Positions 7,908 through 26,610 of a stretch of 27,735 nt of DNA are shown here, piece after piece; the stretch's first letter is position 1, and every line of letters begins with the position of its first letter. Both the position numbers and the translations under genes were made by a program. Source of the stretch: a virus; the IMG/VR virus record IMGVR_UViG_3300047170_000073, positions 1 through 27,735 of that record; one strand, 5' to 3'. The notes below the pieces were generated by a model. It saw only the letters and a program-made list of their open reading frames with translations, searched no databases and had not been told where the DNA came from.

Positions 7908-8957
7908 TTAGATGCCGTCAGCGTAACCAACGGTTTCCGGATACACAAATTCCATCACGCCGAGACGGCCAAAATAGGTGCACATCTGGTAGATCGAGCG
8001 ATACTCAAGCGGGGTACGCTGGAGCGGCACGAGCGGGAAGCGAACGAAATCGGTATTCTGGGTATAGGCAACCATCCGATCTGTGCCGCCGACGCCGCGC
8101 CCAACCAACCATTTTGTCGGCTGGATATCGAGCGCCTTGCCGTTGGTCTGCAAAGCGATGCTGTTCTCCTCAAGGAATTTCAGCAAGCTCATATTACCAG
8201 CGGTCGAGACAATCGTACGTACCAAGAACGAGTATTTCGGCGGGGGCAGGAGCAGCTTCTCGGGCACCACGGAATAACCGGTAGCTGTCCAGGCCGAGGT
8301 CAGCAGGGTATCAACGTCGTTAAGGATCTCCTGCGGAGTCTTATTGATCCAGAGCGGCGATCCAAGCGCACCATTGACAACGTTCCCTGAGGTGCCGACG
8401 CCTGTATAATTGCAGAGCCCCGGCTGATTGAAGGTCGTATCACCGATATAGACCTGCTCATCGATATCCATCTGGTGCTTGAGGCGCAGACCCTCGAATT
8501 TCTGCGCATCGACAGGGCGCCCAAGCTTTTGCGAAGAAAGAAGCTCGGGAATGGTGTACTTGATTTCCATACCCCAAAGGTAGAGGGGGTGGATCGTCTT
8601 ACCGATATCGAGCGCAACGCCTGAAATAGCATTCGCATCGGTTGAAATCCAAGCCTTGCCGCCCGGCGTGATGCCACCTGGCGAGCCGAAGCTGGAGTTG
8701 GTAAAGCTGCTCTGCTCATCGGCAATCGAGACATCCTCGCGGAGGCCGATATCGCGCTGCCATTTTACGCTAACAAGCGGGTCATGCAGCTTCTGGTCAA
8801 GGCGTTCAAGCTCCCCGATCAGGAAGGCACCAACGCCGTCGATGGTCAGACGATCATAGGTCAAGCCCAGGTCTCGGGTAGCACGGCGTCCGCGCGCAAT
8901 GGCGGCAGAGTTGCTTGGGCGGTATTCAGATCCATCCGCCATCAATAGTTTTCTCAT
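7908..8957 (-). CDS. Major capsid protein, DUF2184 family
   Basis: 349 residues. Recognisable segments are FLIGELERLDQKLHDPL with VKWQRDIGLREDVSIADEQ, the WGMEIKYTIPELLSSQKLGR helix region, a QMDIDEQVYIGDTTF motif, and a C-terminal VPLQRTPLEYRSIYQMCTYF ending in GVMEFVYPETVGYADGI. This is the DUF2184 type of HK97-fold major capsid protein. It follows the protease, scaffold and cement genes. CGGAG precedes the ATG. No N-terminal delta domain long enough to act as scaffold is seen, which fits a separate scaffold encoded upstream. Confidence 0.9.
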   Translation of the reverse strand: MRKLLMADGSEYRPSNSAAIARGRRATRDLGLTYDRLTIDGVGAFLIGELERLDQKLHDPLVSVKWQRDIGLREDVSIADEQSSFTNSSFGSPGGITPGGKAWISTDANAISGVALDIGKTIHPLYLWGMEIKYTIPELLSSQKLGRPVDAQKFEGLRLKHQMDIDEQVYIGDTTFNQPGLCNYTGVGTSGNVVNGALGSPLWINKTPQEILNDVDTLLTSAWTATGYSVVPEKLLLPPPKYSFLVRTIVSTAGNMSLLKFLEENSIALQTNGKALDIQPTKWLVGRGVGGTDRMVAYTQNTDFVRFPLVPLQRTPLEYRSIYQMCTYFGRLGVMEFVYPETVGYADGI

Positions 8958-8998: not shown

Positions 8999-9499
8999 TT
9001 AGATGTTGTAAGCGACCTCTGTGATCCCGTTTGAATCAGCAGGACCCATGAAGGTGGCAGGAATGGCGATCAAGCCAGCGCCTGCCGCTGCCTCAAAGCC
9101 ACCGGCAACAAGCAAGCCGGAAGTGGTGGTGCGCCAATAGACAACGGCCCCCTTGATCGCGGCTGTGGTATTCTGCAGCAGGACCGACATATAACCGCGG
9201 CGCAGGATCGAGCAAGCGCCTTGCACCGGTGGGGTCGATACGCCGAGCGCCGGGGCCTGGATTGGATCCTGAACCGGGTAGGGGCGGGCAAGCAAGCCGT
9301 AAAGCGATGCAAGCGTATCACCCGCTGCCGGGATGCGGATCTCGCCGGAGGTAGCATCGAGCACAACGCCCAAGCCAAAAGCAGGGGGAGCGCCGGTTAC
9401 GCCGTAAGGGGTAATGATCTGAGCTTCAACCGTTGCAATCTCGGCGCGGTTGATATCACCCACAATTCCCGCAGGCATGCGAAGCAAATAGGACACCAT
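8999..9499 (-). CDS. Structural cement / decoration protein, gp24-like
   Basis: 166 residues, small-residue rich and beta-rich: RMPAGIVGDINRAEIATVEA at the N-terminus, FGLGVVLDATSGEIRIPAAG in the middle, and GAVVYWRTTTSG near the C-terminus. The opening AGIVGDINR and the G.V.YWRT segment are typical of the Gp24-type cement proteins encoded just before DUF2184 capsid proteins. It probably sits on the capsid surface and stabilises it. The ribosome site TTGGAGA precedes the ATG and has the same form as those of the neighbouring capsid and scaffold genes. Confidence 0.75.
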   Translation of the reverse strand: MVSYLLRMPAGIVGDINRAEIATVEAQIITPYGVTGAPPAFGLGVVLDATSGEIRIPAAGDTLASLYGLLARPYPVQDPIQAPALGVSTPPVQGACSILRRGYMSVLLQNTTAAIKGAVVYWRTTTSGLLVAGGFEAAAGAGLIAIPATFMGPADSNGITEVAYNI

Positions 9500-9543: not shown

Positions 9544-10464
9544 TTAATGCGCTGACTTGTTGTTCTTCCAGAACTCCCTGCCGCGTGCATTGATCTCGGC
9601 AATGGTCGGGGCTTTCGAGGTGGCGTAAATCATATGGCCGGAGTTGGCAGGACCATTACCGGTATCACGAGCGCCGCCGCGCTGCTTAACAAGCTCCGAT
9701 GCGCCGATGAAAAGAGTTTCAACCTTATCGCAAGGCATCCCGTCAAGCTTGAGGCTATCGCCGGTTAGCGGGCGGATGATCTCCGAGATTGTATCATCGG
9801 CAATGGCTTTGGTCAAAGCCCGGCGACGGAGAGCGCAGAGCGCGTCGCTTGTGAGCTTTGGATCGGCCCTGCGATCATAGGTCGGGAATTTGATGCCGGG
9901 GCTAAGGATCTCGGCGCGGGCGCGGGTTTCATGAAAGCTTGTTTCAAGATTAGCGCTATCTTTTGCGCCGCCCTTCTTGCCTTCATCGGTATCATCGGGA
10001 TTTTCTTTACCCTCGATGGCATCGCGCATGCGCTTATCGGCGGTTTCTTTTTCCGTTTTCTCTCTTTCGGCTTTCTCAGCCTCATCGCGAGCGCGCCGAT
10101 CAGCCATCCGCGCGTCCATTGTGCGCTTATAGCTGTCTTTCATTTTGCCGTCTTTCATGCGACGGTCCATCATCTTATCGCCGGTCACCCCTTCCGCATC
10201 GTCGAGGCGGGCCGCGATCTCACCCAAGACCTCAGCCAGATCGGTGACATCCATGCCCTCATCTTGAGTAGCGGCTGCTCTCTTCCTTCTGGTCTCCTCA
10301 TCTTCATCCTCATCCGGCTCCGCATCGCGGGTTAGGATGCGAGCAAGGGCGCTTTCAAAGAGCCCCGCATCCTTTGCCTCGAAAGCAGCGCGGATGGTCG
10401 ACAGATCCGACATCGTACCAAGCAACTGCTGCCGCACGGTCGGGCTAATGGTTTTACGCTTCAT
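9544..10464 (-). CDS. Nested in-frame head scaffold candidate
   Basis: An ATG at 10464 (residue 310 of the protease fusion) is preceded by TAGGAG eight bases upstream. It would give a 306-residue protein starting MKRKTISPTVRQQLLG, containing the acidic and coiled-coil region (DEDEDEETRRKRA, MKDSYKRTMDARMADRRARD) and the helical C-terminus. The site has the same AGGAGA form as the starts of the cement and capsid genes, so it looks like a real initiation region. A scaffold made from an in-frame internal start of the protease gene is known from lambda Nu3 within C. Here it is an inference from the ribosome site and the composition. Confidence 0.6.
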   Translation of the reverse strand: MKRKTISPTVRQQLLGTMSDLSTIRAAFEAKDAGLFESALARILTRDAEPDEDEDEETRRKRAAATQDEGMDVTDLAEVLGEIAARLDDAEGVTGDKMMDRRMKDGKMKDSYKRTMDARMADRRARDEAEKAEREKTEKETADKRMRDAIEGKENPDDTDEGKKGGAKDSANLETSFHETRARAEILSPGIKFPTYDRRADPKLTSDALCALRRRALTKAIADDTISEIIRPLTGDSLKLDGMPCDKVETLFIGASELVKQRGGARDTGNGPANSGHMIYATSKAPTIAEINARGREFWKNNKSAH

Positions 10465-11391
10465 TTCACTATCTCCTATTGAGCACCGTGGGCCACAGCG
10501 ACCCTTTGTAACAAGTGCGACATGGTTGCCGATAATTCTTACCTGCCTCCCCCGGCCTGGAGCGGTTTGTTCATAGTCACAATCATAGCCAGATGAGACT
10601 TCTTTGATCTTCTTAGCCAAGACATCCTTGATGATATCAGGATCTGTAATCAGCAGATCGGCAAGCATGAGATCATCAAGCTGGCCCTCACCTCTACGCG
10701 GGTGCATCACCGTGCCGACCGCGTAGATGCGCCAATTCTCAGGAGTTACTTCAATTCCATCTGGCGGGTGATCAAAGGTAACCGCCTTGCCAGCAAAAGA
10801 GAGAATACAATTTGGATGAAATAGCTCCCCCTCGTCTCGCTCGACCTGGACAACTCCTCCCGAGCCAGGGCGGCTTTCAATCGGTACTTCCTGGCCATCG
10901 CCTTTATAGAAGAGCGTGCCGAGCCTGCCAATCGGCACATCCTCGCAGAGGAGAAAGCCTTCAGGCGTCATGCTCTGCTTTGGACCAAGCTGCTCGGTTG
11001 TATAAAACCGCATCTCTCGGTCGGTTGTGAATTGGCGCATACGCATATCAAGAACCTCTTCTGCGCCTGGATGCAAAGGGCCCGGCGCTGTATCTGCCCG
11101 CCTCCAAATGAACTCTGTATGCTCATCATTAAGGATCGGCGTGAATTCAGGCGACATAACCGAGAAAGTGGTAAAATCTACCTTATCGGTTATGCGCCGG
11201 TAAAGCGGCTTAAGCGCGCCTGTAGGACAATGCCCTATTTCCTCAACGCATTCGCGAGTGGCTGCCTCGATAGGGGTTTCTCCCTCCTCGATCTTGCCGC
11301 CTGGAAATGCCCATTCCTGGCTATCGGCCCGCTTGAGAAAAAGAATTTTTCCCTGCTCGGTTAGGATTAGAACGCCTGCTGCCTCGATCAT
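9544..11391 (-). CDS. NUDIX domain fused to DUF2213 head maturation protease and scaffold region
   Basis: 615 residues in four parts. Residues 1-130 form a NUDIX hydrolase: the box runs from Gly32 through Glu38 to REC-V-EEIG at 46-53, fitting GX5EX7REUXEEXGU, although the U positions are Cys and His. Residues about 130-320 match DUF2213, a prohead protease-like family (KAVTFDHPPDGIEV, SSGYDCDY). Residues about 330-490 are highly charged coiled coil with MKDGKMKD-like repeats. The last 120 residues are a helical tail. It probably cleaves scaffold and capsid during head maturation. The NUDIX domain may hydrolyse a nucleotide or have lost activity. The ATG overlaps the stop of the lysozyme-like gene. 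An internal start at 10464 splits off the scaffold portion. Confidence 0.85.
   Translation of the reverse strand: MIEAAGVLILTEQGKILFLKRADSQEWAFPGGKIEEGETPIEAATRECVEEIGHCPTGALKPLYRRITDKVDFTTFSVMSPEFTPILNDEHTEFIWRRADTAPGPLHPGAEEVLDMRMRQFTTDREMRFYTTEQLGPKQSMTPEGFLLCEDVPIGRLGTLFYKGDGQEVPIESRPGSGGVVQVERDEGELFHPNCILSFAGKAVTFDHPPDGIEVTPENWRIYAVGTVMHPRRGEGQLDDLMLADLLITDPDIIKDVLAKKIKEVSSGYDCDYEQTAPGRGRQVRIIGNHVALVTKGRCGPRCSIGDSEMKRKTISPTVRQQLLGTMSDLSTIRAAFEAKDAGLFESALARILTRDAEPDEDEDEETRRKRAAATQDEGMDVTDLAEVLGEIAARLDDAEGVTGDKMMDRRMKDGKMKDSYKRTMDARMADRRARDEAEKAEREKTEKETADKRMRDAIEGKENPDDTDEGKKGGAKDSANLETSFHETRARAEILSPGIKFPTYDRRADPKLTSDALCALRRRALTKAIADDTISEIIRPLTGDSLKLDGMPCDKVETLFIGASELVKQRGGARDTGNGPANSGHMIYATSKAPTIAEINARGREFWKNNKSAH
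10462..10478 (-). promoter_or_regulatory. Internal ribosome binding site and ATG within the protease gene
   Basis: TAGGAG at 10478-10473, spacer of eight bases, ATG at 10464-10462, in frame with the surrounding gene. It falls exactly at the boundary between the DUF2213 domain and the scaffold-like coiled coil. Confidence 0.6.
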
Positions 11392-11879
11392 GCGTTGATA
11401 GCTTGCACAAAGAGAGGTAAGCTGTTTGCGATCTCGGTTGCGCCAAGGGATGTGTTATACCATTGCTTATGATATTGGGCCATCCCCATTGCATCGGTGG
11501 CGCTCGGTAAAGGAGCCGGGGCTCGATAAAGCTTGACCCGAGCCATGGCGCAAGCTAAATAAAGATTGCCAGCCATCTCTTGCGTGGGGTTGAGCGATTT
11601 AACGCCAAGCATGAGGCTAAGGATGATCGCCTTGAGCGTAGCGTTTTGTGGGAAATCAAGAAAATTAGAGAAGCAATCATTATATGTGGCAGGCTCCATC
11701 TCCCATAAGCCTATCGCTGGCCCGCCTCCTAGCTGCGCAAGATATTGATCGGAGCTTTCAACCAATGCAATACCGGCAAGCAGATTGATCGCCGCTAAGG
11801 AATTCAGGATCGGAGGCAAGAGGGCAAGCGTTGGCACAATGATTAGCTGCTTAAGCTGCGAGATTGGTATCCCCGACAT
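11388..11879 (-). CDS. Lysozyme / transglycosylase-like phage protein (possible endolysin)
   Basis: 163 residues. The motif LLAGIALVESSDQYLAQLGG, then GPAIGLWEMEPATYNDC, resembles a lysozyme-fold core with Glu41 as candidate catalytic acid. Further on, ARVKLYRAPAPLPSATDAMG followed by AQYHKQWYNT is a pattern I recall in many phage lysozyme-like proteins. It likely cuts peptidoglycan glycan strands, either at lysis or as part of the virion. It has no signal peptide. It lies at the end of a lysis-like group (lipoprotein, peptidase, coiled-coil membrane protein) and overlaps the protease start by four bases. Confidence 0.6.
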   Translation of the reverse strand: MSGIPISQLKQLIIVPTLALLPPILNSLAAINLLAGIALVESSDQYLAQLGGGPAIGLWEMEPATYNDCFSNFLDFPQNATLKAIILSLMLGVKSLNPTQEMAGNLYLACAMARVKLYRAPAPLPSATDAMGMAQYHKQWYNTSLGATEIANSLPLFVQAINA

Positions 11880-11888
11880 TGCGGCCTC

Positions 11889-12281
11889 TTAATGAAGGTG
11901 GCTTAAGAAATTAGAGCCGCTGAAGAGTGAAGCAGCAACACCAAGTATTGCGATGATGAGGAGCATGCGGTTTTGCCGCTTGGCTGCTTCCTCGATCTTG
12001 CCTTGTTTGATGCCATCAGAAATGGCAATTTTGGTTGAAATATCATCAAGCTTGTCTTGCAGGCTAGTTTGAAATTCTTTGGCAGCCGCATCCTGCTTTT
12101 GAAGATGCTCGTTTGTCAATCGAAGCTCCTTGAGATTATCCTCATGGCGGCGCTGGTTGGTGCCTTCGTATTGAGTTAAGCGGCTTTCGTATCCAGTAAG
12201 TCTTCCCTCGAAATTAACAAAACGGCTCTCTAGGGAATCAACCCGCTTGAACACTCCATTTTTATCAAATTCTTCTACCAT
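11889..12281 (-). CDS. Coiled-coil protein with C-terminal membrane anchor (XhlA-like layout)
   Basis: 130 residues. Residues 12-100 are heptad-like and charged (SLESRFVNFEGRLTGYESRL), and residues 106-121 form one hydrophobic segment (LLIIAILGVAASLF) ending in a short polar tail. This layout, a soluble coiled coil followed by one membrane helix, is that of XhlA-type phage proteins that act with holins. A role in lysis beside the lysozyme-like gene ten bases downstream is therefore plausible. No sequence motif proves this. Start chosen at ATG 12281 with GGGAG in front, three bases after the peptidase gene ends. Confidence 0.5.
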   Translation of the reverse strand: MVEEFDKNGVFKRVDSLESRFVNFEGRLTGYESRLTQYEGTNQRRHEDNLKELRLTNEHLQKQDAAAKEFQTSLQDKLDDISTKIAISDGIKQGKIEEAAKRQNRMLLIIAILGVAASLFSGSNFLSHLH

Positions 12282-12283
12282 TA

Positions 12284-13069
12284 TTAGCTCCCATCAGAAG
12301 AGACGATTCCATGCTGCTCAACGATGAGATCATCAAGTTCCCGCCAAGTTAATTGGGAAGGGCTAATGCCTGTAATAGGATTAAGCCATTTACGCATGAG
12401 AAAGGCTGTGCCTTCGCTCATATATTTGGATATCCAAGCGCGGGAAGCTATTACATAGCCGCCCCAGGTGGCGATTTTGAACCAAGCGCCAAAATCATAA
12501 TAACCAACTACAAGGGTATCATGGCCTCCCAAGCCGCCATAAGCTCCGCTAACGTCATCCCAGGTATGGGTCTGATCGTACGCATCTTCTGCGTCGGGCG
12601 GAAGCTCTACCCCTAATTCGGTGGGGCCGAAGAGGAAGAGCGAGCGCATAAGCGCATCGATATCCGCCGCCTCGATCTGAGCAAAGCCTTCCAGCTTCTC
12701 TAGCGCATTAGGAGATGTTATGGCAAGGCCATTTTGCATCCAGTAGCGATTTTTATCTAGCAAGACGATACCATTATCATATTCGCCAGTGATCGGGTTA
12801 TAGCCGGTCGCTTTTGAATAATCTAGAATGGCGCATTGAGCGGTTGGCATCTCTGGAGCCCCCGCTTGCTGAGTTATGAATTGCACGGCATGCAAAGAGG
12901 TTGCAAACGCGCAATCGCCTACCGTATCATTGCCGAGCATAGGCACCTGGGAGATCCCAACCGACCAATCAATGCTTGCCGGAAGCTGGATCGGCGCAAG
13001 CAATTTGAAGGTTTTAGCCAAAGGCAAAGAATTATCAAAGACCGCGGGGGCCTTACCTAATTTTTTCAT
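12284..13069 (-). CDS. Papain-like (C1-type) cysteine peptidase homologue
   Basis: 261 residues. The core reads PASIDWSVGISQVPMLGNDT followed by VGDCAF, which puts a candidate nucleophile at Cys53. A GGLGGHDTLVVGY motif gives His183, and FKIATWGGYVI corresponds to the papain NSWG region, though the usual Asn position is Ala here. The protein lacks a prodomain and a signal peptide. It may process virion proteins, modify a host surface protein or be an inactive fold used for binding. It sits between a lipoprotein and a coiled-coil membrane protein in what looks like a lysis or host-interaction group. I recall similar stand-alone proteins in proteobacterial phages but no proven function. Confidence 0.6.
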   Translation of the reverse strand: MKKLGKAPAVFDNSLPLAKTFKLLAPIQLPASIDWSVGISQVPMLGNDTVGDCAFATSLHAVQFITQQAGAPEMPTAQCAILDYSKATGYNPITGEYDNGIVLLDKNRYWMQNGLAITSPNALEKLEGFAQIEAADIDALMRSLFLFGPTELGVELPPDAEDAYDQTHTWDDVSGAYGGLGGHDTLVVGYYDFGAWFKIATWGGYVIASRAWISKYMSEGTAFLMRKWLNPITGISPSQLTWRELDDLIVEQHGIVSSDGS

Positions 13070-13101
13070 ATGGGATCTCCCTTAAGCAAGCCTAGTCTCT
13101 G

Positions 13102-13596
13102 TTAGCCGCCTGCAAGTACGGTTCGCGCTTGTTCGACGCTCATGGCCCCCGGCGTTGCTGAAACGGCCACAAGCATCCCCACAGCCGTTTCTATGTAGGG
13201 AAGCAAGACCTTTGCCGCCGCGATGATCTCAGGGATCGGCGGAGGCAGAACAACGCCTAACACCGGCAGCAGGACCAAAAGCTCATTGAAGTAGCCGCCG
13301 ATCTGCGCAATGATGGGCTGAGCGGCGGTTGTTGTGATCGTTGAGCTTATGCCAGCAGCAGCGGTATCGATCTGATTGATCAAGGTCGTTATGCTGACAA
13401 CTTCAGCTGGTTGAATGCCGGTGAGCGTTGAAACAATCGGCAAGAGCTTGCTGACTCCGGAAGCAAATAGCTGCACATCACTCAAGGTCTGCTGGGCGAT
13501 CTGGGAAGCACTCATCCCAGCGCACCCAGCCAAAGCGCCAAAGCTAAAGGCTGTTGCCCCCAGCAAACCTAAGCGTCGTCGTTTTAAGCTAAGCAT
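13102..13596 (-). CDS. Predicted lipoprotein of unknown function
   Basis: 164 residues. The N-terminus has KRRR followed by a hydrophobic stretch ending in the lipobox LAGC with Cys25, so it is probably exported and lipidated. The mature part is helical and apolar (VSKLLPIVSTLTGIQPAEVV; ELLVLLPVLGVVLPPPIPEI) with no charge-rich region. Its size and place in a lysis-like cluster might suggest an outer-membrane spanin, but it lacks the Pro-rich short form usual for those. Superinfection exclusion lipoproteins are another possibility. AAGGAG precedes the ATG. No family recognised. Confidence 0.65.
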   Translation of the reverse strand: MLSLKRRRLGLLGATAFSFGALAGCAGMSASQIAQQTLSDVQLFASGVSKLLPIVSTLTGIQPAEVVSITTLINQIDTAAAGISSTITTTAAQPIIAQIGGYFNELLVLLPVLGVVLPPPIPEIIAAAKVLLPYIETAVGMLVAVSATPGAMSVEQARTVLAGG

Positions 13597-13601
13597 GGGC
13601 C

Positions 13602-13937
13602 TTACTCCTTCTTTGCCAAAAGAGGCGCTGCCGCAACCTCAACCTTGGCAGCATCGGTAGCGATTGCGCTTAGATCGGCAGGCGTAATCACAAAATCAGG
13701 GAAAATCAGATGCACTAGCCCATAGGCGACAAATAATGCGCCATAGATCGGGGATACAGATTTGTCCATGATGCTGCCGATCTCTGCGCCTGCTGCTGTC
13801 AAAAAAGCAACGACAGAGGTGCGGTTGGAAGCAACATAGAACCAAGCCTTTACCTTTTGAATAAAGGTCTGGGGAGCCACCACAGCTGCTACCTTTGCAG
13901 CGGTCGGGGAGGCAGGTGGGATAACGGAAGCACTCAT
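13602..13937 (-). CDS. Small membrane protein, possible holin
   Basis: 111 residues. An Ala-rich N-terminal tail is followed by an amphipathic helix (FIQKVKAWFYVASNRT) and two moderately hydrophobic segments at about 42-60 and 64-82 (SVVAFLTAAGAEIGSIM; IYGALFVAYGLVHLIF), then an Ala-rich tail ending AKKE. Two membrane segments and a charged C-terminus fit a class II holin, and the surrounding genes make that reasonable, but no holin family was recognised. The start has GGAGAGAG upstream. It precedes the lipoprotein by five bases. Confidence 0.5.
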   Translation of the reverse strand: MSASVIPPASPTAAKVAAVVAPQTFIQKVKAWFYVASNRTSVVAFLTAAGAEIGSIMDKSVSPIYGALFVAYGLVHLIFPDFVITPADLSAIATDAAKVEVAAAPLLAKKE

Positions 13938-13980
13938 CTTTACTCTCTCCTTTTGGTGTTAGAGTAAGCGCATCATCCGC

Positions 13981-14202
13981 TTACTTTGTGAGATGGACTT
14001 CAATGGCGCGCTTAACGCGTGCTACTTGATGCTTGAAGTTAGCTGGCAGAAGCGCCATCTTGGCGAGCGCTGATTTGAGATCATTTTCGATCTCGGCATG
14101 CCACTCCGCAACGGTCGGCTCGCCTGGATCGCCAACCTTGGCCGGTACCTTCTTTACGGAAGGCTCAGGCAAGGGGGCGAGATCATCTTGATTGGTATCC
14201 AT
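13981..14202 (-). CDS. Small protein of unknown function
   Basis: 73 residues: a Pro-rich acidic N-terminus (DLAPLPEPSVKKVPAK) and an amphipathic C-terminal helix (EWHAEIENDLKSALAKMALL, then NFKHQVARVKRAIEVH). A good AAGGAG precedes the ATG, which supports expression. It lies between the second SGNH hydrolase and the membrane protein, with short gaps on both sides. No family recognised and no membrane segment. Confidence 0.6.
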   Translation of the reverse strand: MDTNQDDLAPLPEPSVKKVPAKVGDPGEPTVAEWHAEIENDLKSALAKMALLPANFKHQVARVKRAIEVHLTK

Positions 14203-14238
14203 TTTAATTTACTCCTTATATGGCGTTAAAAACAATTT

Positions 14239-15573
14239 TTAGGAAGCGCGCTGACGACACCAGCTTTTGCTGATCTGAACGGTAGCGGTTCCTGCCGCGG
14301 TAAAGGATCCAGTCATCTGCACATAGGCGTTACCAATAGCCGTGCCGACTGGCGTTACCACTTTGGGGGTCTTGGTTTGATAAGAATAAGCAACGGATGG
14401 GCCTTGATTGCTAACGCCGCCATTGAAATAATCGAGCCCAGCAGCGATCAAAACATTCCCCGCCGCATATGCATAAAGCTCTGTATCAAAGCCAACGAAA
14501 TTAGGCGACGCCCCAGCCAGCACATTGAAGGAAGCACCCGCCTGTATGATATTGCCGGGCTGGATATTGCCGAGCGGGGATTGATTGATTAGCTGCACAA
14601 TACCAGCGCCAGTTGCGGTAATGGCAAGCTGAAGCTCGTGACCAACTCCATTAGGCTCGGCAACGTATGTAAGCGCAACGGTCCAGCCGGTCGGCACCAA
14701 TAGGGTCCAATCCGCCGGGGCAAGACCGGTAACCGTGCCGCCTGAGATCGTGCCGCCGGTTTCATAGGTGAAAAGATTATTACCCAGGATCTGCTGATTG
14801 GGATCTTCAGAGAGCGCACAAGGCACAACGTTAAGAGGAGGCACATCCGGTAGCGCATTGATAAAAAGCTGCGCCATGTAATAGCTGCCAAGACCGTTGG
14901 GATGGAGCACATCTTGCATGCGACCAGCGAGAAAGGCAATTGTATTGCTGAGCGCGGCTGAGGGATCCCAGAGCACGGGCGTTACATCGATGTAGATGAT
15001 CTGGCCGGTCTCGGCAAGCTCACGGCATAGCTCATTATAGCGAGAACAGCCGGTAACAATAGCCGCGCTTACTCCCCCTATGCCAATTTCGGAAAGCAGG
15101 ATCGGCGTCTTGCCTGCCGCAATCAGTTGCTGGCATGCTGGGAGAATGCCGATATTGGTAACGGGCACCCCTGTTACCGTTGGCGTATAGGTGCCGCCGT
15201 TCCATGCCTGATCGGCGGTGGCGCCCGCATCGAGATCGTTAATGATGCTCCAGATCACGCAGTATTTGCTGGTTGAGGCTAAGGCCGTGGCCAAGCCTGC
15301 CGCCAGATATTGGTCGGAGCGATCTCCAGCAATACCAAGCATATTATTACATACATAGCGCTGGCCATTGAGCGCGTTAGCCATGTTGAAAAAATGCGAA
15401 TTATTCTGACTACCAAGCGGCACGTTTTGGAAATTCTGCCTGCTATCGCCGAGCAGATCAAAGCCGCGTTTTTGCGAGCCTGCCGAGATTGTATTGCCCA
15501 GCGCAGATGCAACGGCAGCGGGCATCCCGATGCTTTCAAGATAGCGGCCGTTAGGTTTTGTTAATGCCATCAT
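14239..15573 (-). CDS. SGNH/GDSL-type esterase with C-terminal carbohydrate-binding-like domain
   Basis: 444 residues, no signal peptide. Catalytic blocks are visible: LLGDSRQNFQN (Ser44 nucleophile), LGIAGDRSDQYLA (block II glycine), WSIINDLDAG (Asn112) and DVLHPNGLGS (Asp221 and His224). Residues about 255-440 are a beta-rich region (NNLFTYETGGTISGGTVTG; WTVALTYVAEPNGVGHEL) resembling a jelly-roll sugar-binding domain. In tail proteins such enzymes deacetylate surface polysaccharides at adsorption, so a receptor-binding esterase is likely. It directly follows another SGNH gene in the same direction, with 25 bases between them. Substrate unknown. Confidence 0.8.
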   Translation of the reverse strand: MMALTKPNGRYLESIGMPAAVASALGNTISAGSQKRGFDLLGDSRQNFQNVPLGSQNNSHFFNMANALNGQRYVCNNMLGIAGDRSDQYLAAGLATALASTSKYCVIWSIINDLDAGATADQAWNGGTYTPTVTGVPVTNIGILPACQQLIAAGKTPILLSEIGIGGVSAAIVTGCSRYNELCRELAETGQIIYIDVTPVLWDPSAALSNTIAFLAGRMQDVLHPNGLGSYYMAQLFINALPDVPPLNVVPCALSEDPNQQILGNNLFTYETGGTISGGTVTGLAPADWTLLVPTGWTVALTYVAEPNGVGHELQLAITATGAGIVQLINQSPLGNIQPGNIIQAGASFNVLAGASPNFVGFDTELYAYAAGNVLIAAGLDYFNGGVSNQGPSVAYSYQTKTPKVVTPVGTAIGNAYVQMTGSFTAAGTATVQISKSWCRQRAS

Positions 15574-15598
15574 AATAAATAACCTTTCTGTATTTGGA

Positions 15599-16879
15599 TT
15601 AATTCAAGAGCATGTGGCAAAGACCCTGGGCCTGATCGGCATAACCAATCGAGTTAGGGTGATCGGAATCTGAAGTCACGTAATAGCCAAGGGCTGAGGA
15701 TATCGGCTCGCTAACCCATCGAGCATTGAGATCATAAAGGGGAATGTTATCTGCTGCCGCCAGCGCCTTGGCCATCGCCAGATAGGAAGGCGTTAAGCTT
15801 GGCGAGCGCAGATCGGGTGTCCAGGTCATTAGCATTACATCTCCCGATAGCTGAGCGGCGGTGATCGCGGTTTGAAGCTCCGTCTTTACCGATGCCGCGC
15901 TATTGCCTGCTGAAAGATCATTGGGACCAAACTCGATAATGGTGAGCACCGGCGCAAGATATTCAAGCGTGACCAAAGGATCGGTGATAAAGCCTATATT
16001 GGTCATCCATTGCGCGAGCACAGCCCCGCTAACGCCGGTATTGAATATCTGCACGCTCGATACCGCCGAGTTATAGGCATCGATCCCCACCTCTGCCGCG
16101 TTATTGCCTGCCCCATTAGCGGTCCAATTAAGCGATACCATATTGGTGGCGCTTGTTGAGGAAGCGGTAGCTACCGCTGTATATAGCTGATCGGTGCCGG
16201 TTGTGCCATTGATTGCTACAGCGGTGCCGCCTGTTGCGGTAGCGGTGAAGCTGCCAAACATTCCTAAGCCAACGAAATTCCAAGATGGGTAGTAAATTTC
16301 AAAAGTGTTAATCGGATTATGATTGGGCGAGCCTGCATTCGGAGCATACACCAAAGGCGCTCCAGCCGCGCTGGCCCCTGCTGTCTCCCCACCTAACGTT
16401 GGTAAAGAGCTATATTGGATCCAGCTTCCTGCTGTAAAACGGGCATCGGTTGTGAGCCTGCTAAAAGAAACGCCGGTACCAGAGTAAAGCGGGCCGGTGC
16501 CGAGCACGCCGTTATTATTGGCTTGGATCCCATTCTGCTGAAGGCATGCCGCCAGATAATAGGTGATGTTGATTATATTGGTGCCGCCAACCCCTGACCC
16601 ACCCGCTATGGTGCTATCGCTGCCAATGATTACGCGGGGATGGATCACGCTTGCGCCGTTGCGCATCTTGGCAATGGCTGCCCTCCAATGCGGTAGCAAA
16701 ATTGCGGAAGAGGCTTCCCCTCCTGATCGTTGATAGAAAGGCAAATAGCCATTGCCATCAAGCTGGGCCACGCCTCCCGGCTGACCAAGCGCGCTCTTGG
16801 GGATCGACGGGGGAGGCACCGCTTGGGCATGCGCAGCCAAGGGGGCAAGGAGGAACAAAAAGATGAATAAAAATTTCAT
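15599..16879 (-). CDS. Secreted-type SGNH hydrolase with inserted beta domain
   Basis: 426 residues from ATG 16879. A longer frame exists but would overlap the upstream gene and bury the signal peptide. Residues 1-18 are a Sec signal (FLFIFLFLLAPLAAHA, cleavage near AHA-QA). A linker QPGGVAQLDGNGYLPF resembles phage fibre repeats. Catalytic blocks: VIIGSDSTIAGG (Ser89 candidate), IEFGPNDLSAG (Asn320) and SDSDHPNSIGY (Asp404 and His407). Between blocks, residues about 185-290 form an inserted beta domain. It probably removes acyl groups from a polysaccharide. The signal peptide implies export from the host cell, unusual for a virion part. It lies seven bases after the gene upstream. Confidence 0.8.
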   Translation of the reverse strand: MKFLFIFLFLLAPLAAHAQAVPPPSIPKSALGQPGGVAQLDGNGYLPFYQRSGGEASSAILLPHWRAAIAKMRNGASVIHPRVIIGSDSTIAGGSGVGGTNIINITYYLAACLQQNGIQANNNGVLGTGPLYSGTGVSFSRLTTDARFTAGSWIQYSSLPTLGGETAGASAAGAPLVYAPNAGSPNHNPINTFEIYYPSWNFVGLGMFGSFTATATGGTAVAINGTTGTDQLYTAVATASSTSATNMVSLNWTANGAGNNAAEVGIDAYNSAVSSVQIFNTGVSGAVLAQWMTNIGFITDPLVTLEYLAPVLTIIEFGPNDLSAGNSAASVKTELQTAITAAQLSGDVMLMTWTPDLRSPSLTPSYLAMAKALAAADNIPLYDLNARWVSEPISSALGYYVTSDSDHPNSIGYADQAQGLCHMLLN

Positions 16880-16886
16880 GGCTCGA

Positions 16887-17357
16887 TTAGCCCTCAACGA
16901 AGGATAGGGGGGTGCTGGCAACGGGAGAGATCGCATAGATCGGGCCAGCAGCGCCGGGGCCGACAAATTGATAGCCTCCGCCACCAGGGGCAAGCGGAAT
17001 GCCGCCTCCTTCTGCCACGTTTGAAGGACCAATATCAACGGTCTCAATGCCGGTCGAGCGGTTATAAATGATCAAGAGCTTGCGGGTGGCGCTATAGGGT
17101 ACAACGCTAATTGCGGTCCCTGCTGTTGCGCTGCATGGCACCGCCGCTGAATTAATAAGCGCGGTAGCAACTGGCGCAATGCCTCCCGATATGGATACAG
17201 GCAATGGGTTGCCTGTATCCACCGTCGATCCTTCAACCTCGATGCAAGATTGCAGCGCAACGCTGGCAACCGTTGAGCCTGATACGGTATCCTGCCACGC
17301 CCTAAATGTTTGGGGAGAGCCGGTGCCATCAAGCAAAGTAACCGTTATGGATGCCAT
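16887..17357 (-). CDS. Virion-associated protein of unknown function
   Basis: 156 residues, beta-rich and Gly-rich. An N-terminal ITVTLLDGTGSPQTFRAW segment is followed by VDTGNPLPVSISGG, a motif I recall from phage structural proteins, and then ATRKLLIIYNRSTGIETVDI and GGIPLAPGGGGYQFVGPGA. The second half looks like a small beta-sandwich used in adhesin-type virion proteins. It sits between a fibre-adaptor-like gene and the first SGNH gene, so a tail fibre or decoration role is likely. A perfect 13-bp hairpin lies within the sequence for the VDTGNPLPVS motif. Confidence 0.6.
   Translation of the reverse strand: MASITVTLLDGTGSPQTFRAWQDTVSGSTVASVALQSCIEVEGSTVDTGNPLPVSISGGIAPVATALINSAAVPCSATAGTAISVVPYSATRKLLIIYNRSTGIETVDIGPSNVAEGGGIPLAPGGGGYQFVGPGAAGPIYAISPVASTPLSFVEG
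17192..17221. repeat. Perfect 13-bp inverted repeat in coding sequence
   Basis: TGGATACAGGCAA and TTGCCTGTATCCA flank a four-base loop (TGGG on the plus strand). It is entirely inside the 16887-17357 gene. Confidence 0.85.
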
Positions 17358-17368
17358 TTATATTTTCC

Positions 17369-17872
17369 TTACAGGAGAGCGATATAGCCAGAATTGGAAG
17401 CCTTGTTGAATTTAAGTGCTGGCTTAGAAGAGGGAGGGGTAGGCGGCGAGGTTGCAGGAGGCATCACAAAAATAGGCGGGATGCCGAATTGATATTCAGC
17501 CGATACCTGCTGTACCAGCATCCAAATAGTGCGGCTGATGGTTCTGCCGCCATTGGTGGTTATTAAAAATAAGATTGGATAATCCTGGCAATTCACCCCA
17601 CCCGATACCTCAATCGTTAGCAGGCTCTCGCTGCTCTGCTCTTGCGCTTGGGTAATTACAAAAGCTTGTAATGATTGGGATAAGCATTGCGCCGACCAAG
17701 CATCAACCGTATCATCGATCTCAGCAAGGTATGCTGTAATATCGAGCGTAAAATCGAGCGTGTCATAGGGATCTTTTGTCGGGAAGCGTAATGTGGTGCC
17801 AGGAGGGAGCGCGAGAGGCAAAGTAACCGTGCGAGATAAGGATGGAGGAGGCGGCTTGGTTGATCCTGACAT
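17369..17872 (-). CDS. Fibre-tail adaptor-like protein, copy B
   Basis: 167 residues. After a Pro-rich start it reads RFPTKDPYDTLDFTLDITAY, LAEIDDTVDAW, and later RTIWMLVQQVSAEYQFGI. The same framework (RFP-KDP--LDF-LDIT--LAEIDDTV; RTIW-LVQ---AEY) occurs in the 19116-19757 gene, so the two are paralogues. I recall such KDP-LDY openings from phage fibre-tail adaptor proteins. It would attach a fibre or enzyme to the tail. It comes just before the 16887 gene and the first SGNH hydrolase, which may be what it anchors. The C-terminal 40 residues are Pro-rich and unique to this copy. Confidence 0.65.
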   Translation of the reverse strand: MSGSTKPPPPSLSRTVTLPLALPPGTTLRFPTKDPYDTLDFTLDITAYLAEIDDTVDAWSAQCLSQSLQAFVITQAQEQSSESLLTIEVSGGVNCQDYPILFLITTNGGRTISRTIWMLVQQVSAEYQFGIPPIFVMPPATSPPTPPSSKPALKFNKASNSGYIALL

Positions 17873-17890
17873 CTATTGATCCTAATTATT

Positions 17891-18607
17891 TTACTGCATA
17901 AATATCAAAGGTTGTCCCGCTGGCGCGGAAGCTGTAGCAGTTAAGCTACCTGAAATTGGCGTCAATAAAGTGGAACCGCTGCCTGCTAAATATAGGTACT
18001 GAATGAATATATTACCGCTTGCATTATAACCTAACACATTCACGGCGCTAACAATGCAGCGAACCGTTATAGCAGCAGAACAAATAACGGAAAGCCAGTA
18101 AATGGTATTTGGTTGCAAAGTAAAAGCAGAGCTTAATGATCCAAATATATAACCGGTTGCCGCGCCGGAAAGGCTAGAAGAAGATGCCAACAAAGAACCG
18201 CTCGGCTGATTGCCCCCGCTCCCTCCGTTGTCTCCATAAATCCCGACGCTAAAAGTTGAAGATGCAATGGCGGCAGTTACGTTTAAGCCTAGCTGGTTTA
18301 TGGTGGTAGGTTGCGAAACTACAATAGGAATAAACATTTGTCGGTTAGCGGTAACTGCTATTGATGTAGCGGAGGGACCTATAGAATTCAAAACCCTATA
18401 GTTACCAGATATAGGCGTAAGATTTGGTATGCCAGGGCCAAGGCTGGTTGTTAATCCAGTCCCGCCTTGCGCAACAGATAGCGGCGTTGTTAACCCTAAT
18501 ATCTGCGCAGCAGTAACGGTTGCAAACCGAGCGGATGGATAGGTTTGCGCCTGAGCGCTGCCGATCATTAGCGCGATCAACACTAAGAAAACTAAAAGCT
18601 TTTTCAT
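17891..18607 (-). CDS. Secreted-type fibre-like protein
   Basis: 238 residues. Residues 1-20 form a clear Sec signal peptide (two Lys, then a Leu/Ile-rich core, cleavage after AQA). Next come TPLSVAQGGTGLTTSLG, where SVAQGGTG is a hallmark of phage tail fibres, and a beta-rich body (TTINQLGLNVTAAIASSTFS followed by VGIYGDNGG; LQPNTIYWLSVICSA) that looks like a sugar- or fibre-tip domain. The combination of fibre motif and export signal is odd: a fibre assembled on the tail would stay in the cytoplasm until lysis. It may instead coat the infected cell or reach the particle after export. Confidence 0.65.
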   Translation of the reverse strand: MKKLLVFLVLIALMIGSAQAQTYPSARFATVTAAQILGLTTPLSVAQGGTGLTTSLGPGIPNLTPISGNYRVLNSIGPSATSIAVTANRQMFIPIVVSQPTTINQLGLNVTAAIASSTFSVGIYGDNGGSGGNQPSGSLLASSSSLSGAATGYIFGSLSSAFTLQPNTIYWLSVICSAAITVRCIVSAVNVLGYNASGNIFIQYLYLAGSGSTLLTPISGSLTATASAPAGQPLIFMQ

Positions 18608-18622
18608 GCGAGTGCTTTCAGG

Positions 18623-19105
18623 TTAGCTCTTGGATAAGATGCCACCGTTGTTCCAAAATTGGCCCGATGTGCCGGGGAGAGTTGTTGGCAAGCCGCTAAA
18701 CCATGAAGCATAAAGAGCGCCTAATGCTGTTGTGGTATTAGGTAACGCTGCATTGGCAGTGGTCGAGGCGGAATTAGCGGTTGAGAGCGCTGCGGAGGCA
18801 TTGGTGTTAGCTGTGCTCGCATTGCTATTAGCGGTACCGACGCTTGTGGTCAGAGTGCCCTCTGCTGCGGTAGCTCGGTTGGTCTCAACCAATATGCCTG
18901 CTGTCACAAAAGCATCGGAGGCAGCGGTACCTGTATTATCCCCGGCGCTTGCTGTTGGCACCGTTGGGGATGTAGTAAATGTTGGGCCCCCGCTGATTGT
19001 GGTTACCGTGATCGTTTGAAAGCTCGGAGAAGGCAAGCTGCTTGCCAGAGCGATCTGGGAAGCCATGATTAGCGCCGCTGCTACCGGCAAATATGATAAT
19101 TTCAT
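18623..19105 (-). CDS. Secreted-type fibre-like protein with C-terminal WNNGG motif
   Basis: 160 residues from ATG 19105, preceded by AAGGGG; the longer open frame upstream would bury the signal peptide. Residues 1-21 are a Sec signal ending ALA. Then TTISGGPTFTTSPTVPTASA followed by NTGTAASDAFVTA, a typical fibre segment, and an Ala/Ser/Asn/Thr repeat region (residues about 85-125: STANTNASAALSTANSASTT), probably a coiled or triple-stranded shaft. The end GTSGQFWNNGGILSKS closely resembles the C-terminus of the gene upstream. It is likely a short fibre or appendage; the signal peptide again suggests export. Confidence 0.65.
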   Translation of the reverse strand: MKLSYLPVAAALIMASQIALASSLPSPSFQTITVTTISGGPTFTTSPTVPTASAGDNTGTAASDAFVTAGILVETNRATAAEGTLTTSVGTANSNASTANTNASAALSTANSASTTANAALPNTTTALGALYASWFSGLPTTLPGTSGQFWNNGGILSKS

Positions 19106-19115
19106 TGGATACCCC

Positions 19116-19757
19116 TTAAGGCTGTGATATGCTAAGCACGCCGCCGTTGTTCCATAGCTGCCCAGGCTCGCTCGGCTCGCTCGTTGGTGCCTCAACCAAT
19201 ACCGCTAAGATCGCCGCCGCTAAGCCGCTCCCCTGCACTGCTTGCGCAAGTAAGCTTACCAGCACCTTCATCGTTGCCCCATCAATGCTCATTGCAACAT
19301 AATCGGTGGCAGCCGGTACTTGATCGCTTGCAGGCAACGCATTAACATCAATCTGGCCATCGGCTGGTAGAACCGTGATTGGTTTTGGAACGCTATATTC
19401 AGCTGTCTGCGTTTGCACCAATAGCCAGATTGTGCGATCTAGCAGCAAGCCGCTGCTGGTAAGCACGTAAAAAATAATTGGATAATTGACGTTCTCGGTG
19501 CCGCCTCCAATCATGGCGGTAATCACCTCAACCCCTGATTGGCTATCATAGGATATCGTGAGAGGCGTTATCGAGGCGCTAGGGGTTGAAACGGTAAAGC
19601 TCTCAACGGTATCATCGATCTCGGCAAGCCAATTAGTTATATCAAGCGAGAAATCTAGCTCATCGCCTGGATCCTTTGGCGGAAACCTAATTGTGGTGCG
19701 AGGGGGGATTATAAGCGGTAAGGCAATGGTGCGCGAGAGCGCGGGGTTAAGGGTCAT
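19116..19757 (-). CDS. Fibre-tail adaptor-like protein, copy A, with C-terminal WNNGG motif
   Basis: 213 residues. Residues 5-115 are the adaptor-like framework shared with the 17369-17872 gene: RFPPKDPGDELDFSLDITNW, LAEIDDTVESF, and RTIWLLVQTQTAEY. A linker follows, then an Ala-rich segment (LVSLLAQAVQGSGLAAAILA) and the ending PSEPGQLWNNGGVLSISQP. The C-terminus is shared in pattern with the next gene. The ATG lies one base after the gp7-like gene stops. Attachment of a fibre to the tail is inferred from similarity to phage adaptor proteins. Confidence 0.65.
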   Translation of the reverse strand: MTLNPALSRTIALPLIIPPRTTIRFPPKDPGDELDFSLDITNWLAEIDDTVESFTVSTPSASITPLTISYDSQSGVEVITAMIGGGTENVNYPIIFYVLTSSGLLLDRTIWLLVQTQTAEYSVPKPITVLPADGQIDVNALPASDQVPAATDYVAMSIDGATMKVLVSLLAQAVQGSGLAAAILAVLVEAPTSEPSEPGQLWNNGGVLSISQP

Positions 19758-19758
19758 T

Positions 19759-20511
19759 TCAATCTACCTGCACGATGGGCTCGGGCCAGCATCGGCAGTT
19801 ATAGATCCGCCCTGCATGGTAGCGCTTGCCGGGCTCAACCTCCGGCGGGTTAGCCCATTGGCAAACCCTGCCTTCCATGTGCAGATGGCTGTCTCGCTCT
19901 CTGCGATCTTTAACGCCTCGCCAGATATAGCTTGTCGAGCCAACCGCCACGGATCGAGCTTCTGTGAGTTCAGATGCGGTCCTTGCAATTTCTGTACGAG
20001 CAATAAGAGTAGCTCTGGCTTTTGTAACATCGCCGGTCTCCATTATGCGCTTGGCAAGCTCATCATGCCTGCCGCTAACGGCTAGGTTCTCGATCGTTAG
20101 CTCATGCACGCGCTTTGCCGCCTCTAGCGGTAAGCTTGTAATCAGATCGACCTGCCGAGCTAAGGCCGCTCGCAAAACCCGACCCGTCGCCTCTTTAGCG
20201 ATCTCTTGCCGGAGGGAAAGACCCATTTGCCTCGAATAGCCCTCCCAGGCAGCCGTGTCACGGCGTCCTACCTCTTTTAGGACCAAAGCTGCCGTCGCTG
20301 CTGCCCACGGCCGTAACATCTCTGCATAGCGGAAGAGCATCATGTTGAGATTGCCCATCGCAGTTGGATCCTTGAGCACATCAAAGCTATCGATCAGATG
20401 ACCGATGTGCTGGGCGATCTTGCGAAGCTTAACCGCGTACTGGCTAGATGCGCGGCGCACGCGCTCGAAAGCTAGTTTCTCGCTCGGCTTGTCTTTTATG
20501 CGTAATGCCAT
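19759..20511 (-). CDS. Phage head morphogenesis protein, SPP1 gp7 / Mu gpF-like
   Basis: 250 residues. The N-terminal two thirds is helical and basic. The C-terminal domain carries the family signature: ARTEIARTASELTEARSVAV, then YIWRGVKDRRERDSHLHMEG and a cluster with Cys and Asn (YNCRCWPEP). SPP1 gp7-like proteins bind the portal and are packaged in small number in the procapsid. It normally follows the portal; here the HNH region and a plus-strand gene stand between them. The start has no clear Shine-Dalgarno. It shares a short intergenic region with the divergent gene at 20583. Confidence 0.85.
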   Translation of the reverse strand: MALRIKDKPSEKLAFERVRRASSQYAVKLRKIAQHIGHLIDSFDVLKDPTAMGNLNMMLFRYAEMLRPWAAATAALVLKEVGRRDTAAWEGYSRQMGLSLRQEIAKEATGRVLRAALARQVDLITSLPLEAAKRVHELTIENLAVSGRHDELAKRIMETGDVTKARATLIARTEIARTASELTEARSVAVGSTSYIWRGVKDRRERDSHLHMEGRVCQWANPPEVEPGKRYHAGRIYNCRCWPEPIVQVD

Positions 20512-21973: not shown

Positions 21974-22171
21974 TTAGTTTGGCAATCGTATGATAGGAAA
22001 GTAAGTCAATCTACCCTCGCTCGCAAGCTGATCTCTCCAATGCTGCTCAATCTCCTCGGCCTCATTATACATAACCGCATATTGTTTACCTAAGCCGTCG
22101 GGGCGTTTAGCTTTTAGTAATCTGCGCGGGCGCGGCTCATGGGGTCTCCTATGCGGCTCAAGCATTGGCAT
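21974..22171 (-). CDS. Small protein of unknown function after portal
   Basis: 65 residues from ATG 22171, which has GGAGG six bases upstream; the longer frame upstream lies inside the portal gene and looks like shadow. The N-terminal part is basic and Pro-rich (LEPHRRPHEPRPRRLLKAKR), followed by an amphipathic segment NEAEEIEQHWRDQLASEGRL. It overlaps the portal 3' end by 14 bases. No family recognised. Confidence 0.55.
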   Translation of the reverse strand: MPMLEPHRRPHEPRPRRLLKAKRPDGLGKQYAVMYNEAEEIEQHWRDQLASEGRLTYFPIIRLPN

Positions 22172-23684
22172 TGACGCCCTCCAGCTTATCAGGCTTTTGC
22201 GGGTTCTCTGCGTTTTGCTGCTGCGTGGCCCCAAGGCTGAGATCATTAACCTCTGGCGGCTCTGGTGGCTCCCCCTCTGCCGCTTCTACATCTTCATCTG
22301 TGATATTGCTGAAGATGCCGGTTAACCTGCTCGATGCCTGCAACTCTTTGAGGGCTGTCTTTTGGTTGATCAAGCCAGCATCGAAGGCAGCCTGCACCGT
22401 TGTCTCAACCTTTGTTGCATAATCTGATTTTTCAGGCGCACTCATCTGCCAGAGCGGGTTAAATGTATAGCTGAAATTATTGTCGAGCGGTCTGCCAAAT
22501 AGCGAGTAGTTGGCGCAATTGAGCACCTTTGTTAACGGCAAGCGCACCCTGCTCTCTTGGTCGCTGCTGCACATATCATAGTAATTGCGCGTATCAGCGT
22601 CGCCGGTCGCATTGAGGCCAGCGGGCGCTTGGCCAAACAAGCGCGTGAGCGGGATCGCGGCACCCCCTGATAGCTGCTGACTAAATTGGATCAGCATATC
22701 GCTTAACCCTGTAAAGGCATAGCTGTGCGTTTCAAATTTGTCTTTGGCATCGATAACCGTTAAGCCCTCGGTATTCTGCAGCATGCGGATGACGCTCACC
22801 TGCTGCAGAAATGCCTGATACATCTGGCCACCAGCCGCGATAAGCTCCCTCAAGCCCTCAACAGAATAGGTGCGCAGATGCGCCTTATAAACAAGCTGGC
22901 TTGCGCCGGTTGTAGCGCTATCGAAGGCCACGATACGATCGTAGATCGGCTCGATGATCGAGCAGCCCCATTGGTTCTCTTGCATCGCTTGCCAATAGGG
23001 CAACTCAACGCCTTCAAAGCGGATGAAGCGCGAATAATGAAAGCGCATACGAGGAATGGCTAAACCATCGGCCTGCACCTCATAATACATCGGTTTTCCG
23101 AAATCAGGACCGGGTTCGGTAACAAGCTCATTGAGATGAGGCCAGACCATCCAGCGATCTAGCACGACCAACCCTTGGAACTGCCCCTTACCGATTGTCT
23201 CTAGACGGAGAGGAGTATCAGGGCGCTGCCCCTTGATCATAATATAGCAGCCAGCGCCTCCATAAAGCCTAGCCCACTTTAGCGCCTGATTGAGCTTCTG
23301 CCATACTCCGATCTCGCTGAGATAAGTATCTCTGGTAGCCACATCCTCCGGCTTCTCATCCGAGGTCGAGGTGATGCCTGCTCGCGTCATATCATCTGGG
23401 ATACAATCTACAAGGCGCTTGACAATCCAAGATCCTCGATACATCCATTCAAGCAAGGTATGGTTGCGGCTAACAGGATTGAAGCCATAATAGCTCGCCG
23501 AGCTTTGGTTGTTAGTGCCTAAGCCGAGCGATGCCGCAAAATTCTGAAAGCTATCATTGGTGCCGTCTTTTGTCACCCATGCTTTGGGCGTATCAAGGCT
23601 TGGCTGCGAGCCTGCCTTAACGCGGATCCTAGGCTTCTCTGTGCTCGCTAAAGCTTGCGGTGATATTATGCGGCGAGGAGCCAT
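22158..23684 (-). CDS. Portal protein, DUF1073 family
   Basis: 508 residues. Signature regions include the N-terminal NHTLLEWMYRGSWIVKRLVD followed by IPDDMTRAG, the LNQALKWARLYGGAGCYIMI segment, RMRFHYSRFIRFEGVELPYW, and the C-terminal GDADTRNYYDMCSSDQESRV. This is the DUF1073 type of dodecameric portal through which DNA enters the head. The last 40 residues are acidic and Pro/Gln-rich and probably disordered. It follows the terminase but is separated from it by the plus-strand accessory block. AGGG lies before the ATG. Confidence 0.9.
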   Translation of the reverse strand: MAPRRIISPQALASTEKPRIRVKAGSQPSLDTPKAWVTKDGTNDSFQNFAASLGLGTNNQSSASYYGFNPVSRNHTLLEWMYRGSWIVKRLVDCIPDDMTRAGITSTSDEKPEDVATRDTYLSEIGVWQKLNQALKWARLYGGAGCYIMIKGQRPDTPLRLETIGKGQFQGLVVLDRWMVWPHLNELVTEPGPDFGKPMYYEVQADGLAIPRMRFHYSRFIRFEGVELPYWQAMQENQWGCSIIEPIYDRIVAFDSATTGASQLVYKAHLRTYSVEGLRELIAAGGQMYQAFLQQVSVIRMLQNTEGLTVIDAKDKFETHSYAFTGLSDMLIQFSQQLSGGAAIPLTRLFGQAPAGLNATGDADTRNYYDMCSSDQESRVRLPLTKVLNCANYSLFGRPLDNNFSYTFNPLWQMSAPEKSDYATKVETTVQAAFDAGLINQKTALKELQASSRLTGIFSNITDEDVEAAEGEPPEPPEVNDLSLGATQQQNAENPQKPDKLEGVNANA

Positions 23685-26415: not shown

Positions 26416-26610
26416 CTATTTTACTCTTGGTGGGTTTCTTTTACAATAATGCCAAAGCCGCTCATAAAGCGGGTGCTCACAGAGCGCGAGATTAGCCATG
26501 TCGGTATGCTTCATGATGATAACCGAGAGGCTAATCTGAGTAGCCTCGATCTTGCCTGGATATTTTTTGGTATCGAACTCGATCTCGAAGGTATCGGTCT
26601 CCTCATTCAT
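26416..26610 (-). CDS. Small protein of unknown function after the terminase
   Basis: 64 residues: acidic N-terminus (NEETDTFEIEFDTKKYPGKI), then EATQISLSVIIMKHTDMANL and CEHPLYERLWHYCKRN. The ATG overlaps the terminase stop (ATGA), so it is co-translated. Position next to the terminase could suggest a packaging accessory role, without sequence support. Confidence 0.6.
   Translation of the reverse strand: MNEETDTFEIEFDTKKYPGKIEATQISLSVIIMKHTDMANLALCEHPLYERLWHYCKRNPPRVK

Follow-up and report, generated by a model that had tools for sequence, protein, structure and literature searches.

Signal peptides predicted on fibre-like and SGNH proteins in the virion operon of a contractile-tail phage

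In the virion operon of a contractile-tail phage, it was found that two, and probably three, genes for fibre-like or SGNH proteins begin with a predicted Sec/SPI-type signal sequence, and export of their products is likely. In the best reading, to which I give about an even chance, receptor-binding and glycan-deacetylating modules would have been recycled by an N-terminal swap into exported proteins that act in the periplasm and in the lysate.

Signal peptides in the fibre cassette

The window, that is, the whole stretch of DNA analysed here, is a linear 27.7-kb IMG/VR record from an uncultured virus, and its minus strand carries the virion operon (Table 1). Signal peptides were called with a purpose-written, rule-based detector of n-, h-, and c-regions. 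A preliminary description had placed signal peptides on the genes starting at 16879, 18607, and 19105, with fibre motifs or an esterase behind them, and both claims were borne out. The three N-termini, all opening with an ATG on the minus strand, are MKFLFIFLFLLAPLAAHA^QAVPPP (16879; score 10.17), MKKLLVFLVLIALMIGSAQA^QTYPSA (18607; 12.15), and MKLSYLPVAAALIMASQIALA^SSLPSP (19105; 8.33), where ^ is the predicted cut. Positive controls, 12 E. coli signal peptides, scored 8.1-11.1. Among internal Met pseudo-starts, 27 of 4951 (0.5%) falsely reached a score of at least 8, as did 8 of 18253 arbitrary internal positions of structural proteins (0.04%). Because of an Ala-rich N-terminal arm, the detector also passes 10 of 57 major capsid proteins from relatives, at 8.4-9.2; a score of 8-9 alone is thus weak evidence, which makes 19105 the least secure of the three genes. 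The scores of the 16879 and 18607 genes exceed that of every passing capsid arm. The N-termini have a basic n-region, a hydrophobic h-region, and a c-region of the A-x-A type, and the case for a Sec/SPI-type signal sequence predicted from them is strong for 16879 and 18607 and moderate for 19105. Among the 30 window genes scored, only the lipobox protein (13596) exceeded 8 besides these three, and two further genes stayed below it at 6.5 and 7.7. The capsid arms of relatives, for example in L059 (14161-15198) and similar loci, look signal-like, being hydrophobic and Ala-rich (MSKIILPRMAAAAAIAMVNAPA).

Table 1. Features of the virion operon in the window
Feature	Positions	Strand	Remarks
TerL	26607-27734	minus	
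Portal	22158-23684	minus	Phage_portal_3
MuF	19759-20511	minus	
Fibre cassette	15599-19757	minus	
gp77-type fibre-tail adaptor homologue A	19116-19757	minus	PF23148, E 5.4e-14; WNNGG C-terminus; no signal
Fibre-like protein, 160 aa, predicted exported	18623-19105	minus	moderate signal; alanine-zipper/coiled-coil middle; WNNGG C-terminus
Fibre-like protein, 238 aa, predicted exported	17891-18607	minus	signal; QGGTG collar; jelly-roll-like domain
gp77-type fibre-tail adaptor homologue B	17369-17872	minus	PF23148, E 6.7e-14; no signal
Small protein, 156 aa	16887-17357	minus	between adaptor B and SGNH gene; weak phrog_30212; no signal
SGNH/GDSL esterase, 426 aa	15599-16879	minus	Sec/SPI signal; predicted cut after residue 18
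Second SGNH/GDSL protein, 444 aa	14239-15573	minus	signal score 6.5, unconvincing
Lysis-like group	11388-13937	minus	
Small protein, 111 aa	13602-13937	minus	two hydrophobic stretches; holin-like by eye; no Pfam match
Putative lipoprotein, 164 aa	13102-13596	minus	lipobox LAGC (detector and sequence)
SLT-like protein, 163 aa, candidate muralytic enzyme	11388-11879	minus	phrog_3108; Pfam SLT E 0.0079, below cut-off
NUDIX-DUF2213	9544-11391	minus	
Cement	8999-9499	minus	
Major capsid	7908-8957	minus	
Sheath	3499-5004	minus	DUF3383
Tape measure with tail lysozyme	259-2397	minus	

The three signal-bearing genes look operon-borne rather than separately promoted, since the intergenic gaps from 19757 to 14239 are 7-25 bases and no excess of terminators or promoters was found inside the fibre cassette. 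Rfam and tRNA scans of the window were empty. Both adaptors clear the curated PF23148 cut-off of 27 (52.9 and 52.6 bits), and adaptor A has a structural-chain match to 8jou_D (E 0.015). An alignment of gp77 found no match in the genome contigs, and a search with PF23148 across 385 genomes (the class of G001) gave 5 positives whose loci were too short or unrelated. No hit to the fibre-motif pattern was obtained in 385 genomes.

The 19105 protein has a PHROG tail-fibre match and shares its C-terminal motif with adaptor A. The domain of the 18607 protein matches the NCBIfam choice-of-anchor R family, named for surface-anchored proteins, over the cut-off. Its model has a mean pLDDT of 45, so that the top Foldseek match, a capsid protein of cyanophage A4, is a hint only. 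The domain has a Cys pair, whose closeness could not be shown in this low-confidence model.

The 16879 protein carries a fibre-type collar, GGVAQLDGNGYLP, of the GGVAxLDGNGYLP type, and SGNH blocks I (GDS), II (G), III (GxND), and V (DxxH) in order, block I reading GSDST. The SGNH/GDSL profile match is 33.0 bits against a cut-off of 32.9. The model of the mature protein aligns best with periplasmic Ape1 (8gld, Z 13.8 over 300 residues; 4k3u, Z 13.2 over 280), while the alignments with other SGNH proteins, among them the tail fibres 9lna and 4qnl, are confined to the core, at about 160-195 residues; the mean pLDDT is 42.8, and the Z values of 11-14 are nearly tied, with 9lna and 4qnl almost equal. 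Since the model is poor, the Z gaps are small, and a signal-less SGNH protein of a relative (L007) has a similar inserted region, the likeness to Ape1 is a lead only. A three-sequence profile search detected no Ape1 chains up to E 0.1, and a single-sequence scan of viral contigs detected no relatives of the SGNH gene.

N-terminal swap and recurrence in other phages

What do the nearest relatives carry at these N-termini? In L047 (66% portal identity), a protein 49% identical to the 18607 domain over 186 residues has a longer, virion-type N-terminus and no signal. In L007 (63% portal identity), an SGNH protein whose SGNH part matches that of the window protein at E 3e-6 has about 100 extra N-terminal residues, likewise of the virion type and without a signal. 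The WNNGG end of the 19105 protein is also found on a signal-less L047 protein. The window proteins lack the N-terminal domains of the L047 and L007 homologues and have a signal peptide instead, though other modes of docking are possible. A tail-fibre-like protein of L047 itself (phrog_33320), with its gene cut by the contig end, begins with a signal, MKKLLFILAILLPAMAQA^Q. As far as the predicted N-termini indicate, the swap runs both ways, with signals in the window against virion-type ends in L047 and L007, and a signal elsewhere in L047. It had been proposed that signal-less homologues in the same role would refute export. Such homologues were found in the same place in L047 and L007, and export is not thereby refuted; read together, they indicate an N-terminal module swap and show that export is not essential to these modules.

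Signals on fibre-like and SGNH proteins are recurrent yet uncommon. L008 and L048 (53-54% portal identity) have signal-bearing proteins in the same MuF-DUF2213 slot as the window cassette. Their C-terminal domains are 42% identical, both proteins have a signal, and two Cys residues of the mature proteins are conserved, while the preceding region differs in sequence and length. In L029, which was picked up through homology to the window SGNH protein, the SGNH protein (4143) and its neighbour (2735) have signals, and a third gene (6337) has a weak one. An unselected motif scan gave L134, with a signal on a fibre-like gene beside its fibre. In PBC5, a Sinorhizobium phage that has been isolated, the SGNH protein encoded three genes past the adaptor (orf16) is signal-bearing; a copy in a Sinorhizobium MAG (L032) is 84% identical and keeps the signal, although 9 of the 27 signal codons change the amino acid. 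An A-x-A^Q or near cut is predicted for the window proteins 16879 and 18607, L047, L029 (2735 and 4143), L048, L134, PBC5, and L032, the PBC5 and L032 cuts being taken as ANA^Q and AYA^Q, which are not the first choice of the detector. Q directly follows the predicted cut in 9 of 12 signal-bearing proteins.

The rarity is also evident. A signal was found in 0 of 12 unselected fibres sampled by motif. When 693 genes lying downstream of the portal were surveyed across 78 related loci, with capsid N-arms and internal tape-measure segments set aside, only L047, L048, and L008 had one, in all cases between MuF and DUF2213 or its place. Across 394 genomes of the family, a search for PBC5 orf16 recovered the known copy and a distant signal-less homologue. 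The L008/L048 domain gave nothing usable in phages, plasmids, and 385 genomes, and the signal-bearing proteins of L134, L029, and L047 had no match among GenBank phages. As a pointer to disulfides, Cys parity was rejected as too weak (9 of 11 complete proteins are even if PBC5 is cut at ANA^Q).

Two of these loci have further features. The signal-bearing genes of L029 (2325-10097) adjoin an apparent lysis cassette, as in the window. The signal-bearing gene of L134 (2-1303, minus strand), whose product combines a collagen-like stretch with eight closely paired Cys, comes after the baseplate/fibre cluster of another contractile-tail phage.

Probable export, its possible role, and rival readings

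The preliminary description had read the signals as a sign of export. This part stands as a sequence-based reading, well supported by the canonical cleavage sites, the recurrence in unrelated phages, and the retention of the signal across the diverged L008/L048 and PBC5/L032 pairs. The roles it had proposed, receptor masking or exclusion of rivals, are possible; a role directed at peptidoglycan would suit the SGNH gene at least equally well. Export in vivo, the substrate, and the benefit (lysis aid, release, or exclusion) are what I infer from these features.

The proposed mechanism would run as follows. The two, probably three, proteins would be late products that leave the cytoplasm through Sec, lose their signal to signal peptidase I, and fold in the periplasm. 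Between them they would keep the usual receptor-binding parts, namely a collar, a jelly-roll domain, a coiled coil, and an SGNH esterase, while a signal peptide takes the place of the virion-docking N-terminus. The compartment reached by Sec contains peptidoglycan and lipid-linked glycans. There, and in the lysate after the cell opens, the proteins may bind and de-esterify glycans of the host envelope. The SGNH protein would most likely strip O-acetyl groups from the peptidoglycan or a surface polysaccharide of the infected cell. Removal of O-acetyl groups would open peptidoglycan to muramidases and lytic transglycosylases. De-esterification would help lysis or keep progeny from sticking to debris, and perhaps also shut out competing phages. 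As for the fibre-like proteins, they would either attach to glycans from the inner side or escape when the cell lyses. The alternative substrate, O-acetyl groups of surface polysaccharide, is that of G7C gp63.1 and the Klebsiella prophage SGNH proteins (PMC13123978).

The main rival, which I consider unlikely, is that the proteins are exported and cut but join the virion after lysis, when the compartments mix and the fibres dock onto gp77-like adaptors assembled in the cytoplasm. Adaptor A is followed directly by two signal-bearing genes, and adaptor B by one small gene and then the third (gaps of 7-18 bases). This order counts against the best reading, since the place directly behind the adaptor is that of the true fibre in GP4/Bcep22-type phages; the JC1 adaptor gp55 and fibre gp56 were both found in CsCl-purified virions (PMC9144972). 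In addition, the collars are of the virion type, and the paired cysteines in several signal-bearing proteins would fit periplasmic folding before such docking. On the other hand, the adaptors of L047 and L007 precede signal-less fibres, and a brief encounter after lysis would probably be inefficient.

It is quite unlikely that the genes are host-type exported surface or enzyme genes, acquired by the phage as lysogenic-conversion morons and merely fibre-looking. SGNH and beta-helix enzymes are common among secreted enzymes, and choice-of-anchor R, matched by the 18607 protein, is found in a bacterial ORF with a signal (L140) as well. A further exported product, lambda Lom, comes from a gene flanked by tail genes (PMC12309495). 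Against this, the short gaps and the lack of promoter or terminator excess within the cassette do not suit morons, the collars and WNNGG ends are phage modules, and the closest homologue of the 18607 protein is a phage protein (L047).

I regard as improbable a third explanation, in which the hydrophobic N-terminus is retained as a docking peptide or a membrane anchor of a virion protein. Phage fibres commonly dock by their N-termini, and the Ala-rich capsid arms of relatives pass the same detector. However, docking would not need the A-x-A cut followed by Q that is kept over many unrelated proteins, and it would be difficult to prevent the strongest h-region (LLVFLVLIALMIGSA) from entering Sec. 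Finally, that the signals are functionless, arising by chance or as recombination relics in a fast-changing fibre cassette, has very little to recommend it: the patchy distribution, their absence from the unselected fibres, and the modest 19105 score would fit, but signals are kept in the PBC5/L032 and L008/L048 pairs, and three lie within one cassette with canonical cleavage sites.

The usual view is that tail fibres assemble in the cytoplasm. If the recycling of receptor-binding modules into exported proteins reflects a general strategy, in which an N-terminal swap switches such modules between virion and exported forms, phages would also export their entry enzymes and lectins by Sec onto the envelope of the dying cell for release, disarming of debris, or exclusion, or would mount them on particles after lysis. 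This generalization is tentative and somewhat doubtful. Annotation pipelines label such genes as tail fibre and go no further. If the products of some fibre genes are exported, predicting host range from fibres would give wrong results for those phages, and phages would have a class of late effectors that work on the cell envelope. The idea is testable, for PBC5, an isolated phage, carries one such gene.

Known systems and neighbouring genes

The closest known arrangement is the module of GP4/Bcep22-type podophages (gp77 adaptor and gp80 fibre; PF23148 and PF23140). Adaptors A and B match PF23148, fibre-like genes lie behind them, and L047 has PF23140 too. In contrast to that module, the window is a contractile-tail genome with two adaptors and with signals on the fibre-like genes behind them. 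In the Burkholderia phages BcepIL02 and BcepMigl and in Atu_ph08 and PBC5, the post-adaptor fibre starts with MALKLSNN or similar and has no signal; GP4 itself was absent among the matches listed in the phage search. The window SGNH protein resembles SGNH tail-fibre esterases (G7C gp63.1 and Klebsiella prophage receptor-binding proteins) in its fold, complete motif, and location in a tail/fibre cluster. Those are virion receptor-binding proteins, whereas in the window protein a signal stands at the position of the virion N-terminus; no signal peptide is mentioned for SGNH receptor-binding proteins in PMC13123978. Like Ape1 of Neisseria and Campylobacter, it is signal-bearing and, in the low-confidence model, interrupted by a beta-rich insertion, but the identity is only 12-14%, with no match at the sequence level.

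The preliminary description knew of no described mechanism for such proteins. This was too strong, since in lambda the exported protein Lom is encoded between tail genes (PMC12309495). In both cases, a gene situated among the tail genes of a phage of Gram-negative bacteria encodes a protein with a signal peptide; unlike the window proteins, Lom is an outer-membrane barrel, neither a fibre nor an esterase. Exported tail-operon products and SGNH fibres are thus already known, and what appears to be new is the signal peptides on phage fibre-like and SGNH proteins, with no precedent for fibres found in the literature searched. Open-literature searches in a limited collection returned no account of signal peptides on phage fibre, spike, or SGNH proteins, and the papers on phiCbK, CBB, MP1, and Atu_ph07 mention signal peptides only for other genes, in methods, or in references.

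Several observations concern the neighbouring genes. In most of the roughly 70 relatives found by portal, MuF and DUF2213 are direct or near neighbours; in the window, the fibre and lysis-like cassette (11388-20511) lies between the two. The window DUF2213 protein, in the scaffold/protease position, has a NUDIX domain at its N-terminus (E 5e-16), and the DUF2213 genes of L008, L048, and L104 begin without an evident one. The putative lipoprotein gene adjoins the holin-like gene and may encode a spanin or an exclusion factor; Ala follows the lipidated Cys, which is the outer-membrane type under the E. coli rule. The SLT-like gene lies three genes past it. A late-operon phrog_19005 protein (12284-13069) has a GDCAFA...H pattern suggestive of a cysteine peptidase. 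The second SGNH gene, which lacks a signal, comes directly after that of the predicted exported SGNH protein, as if there might be one esterase for each side of the membrane.
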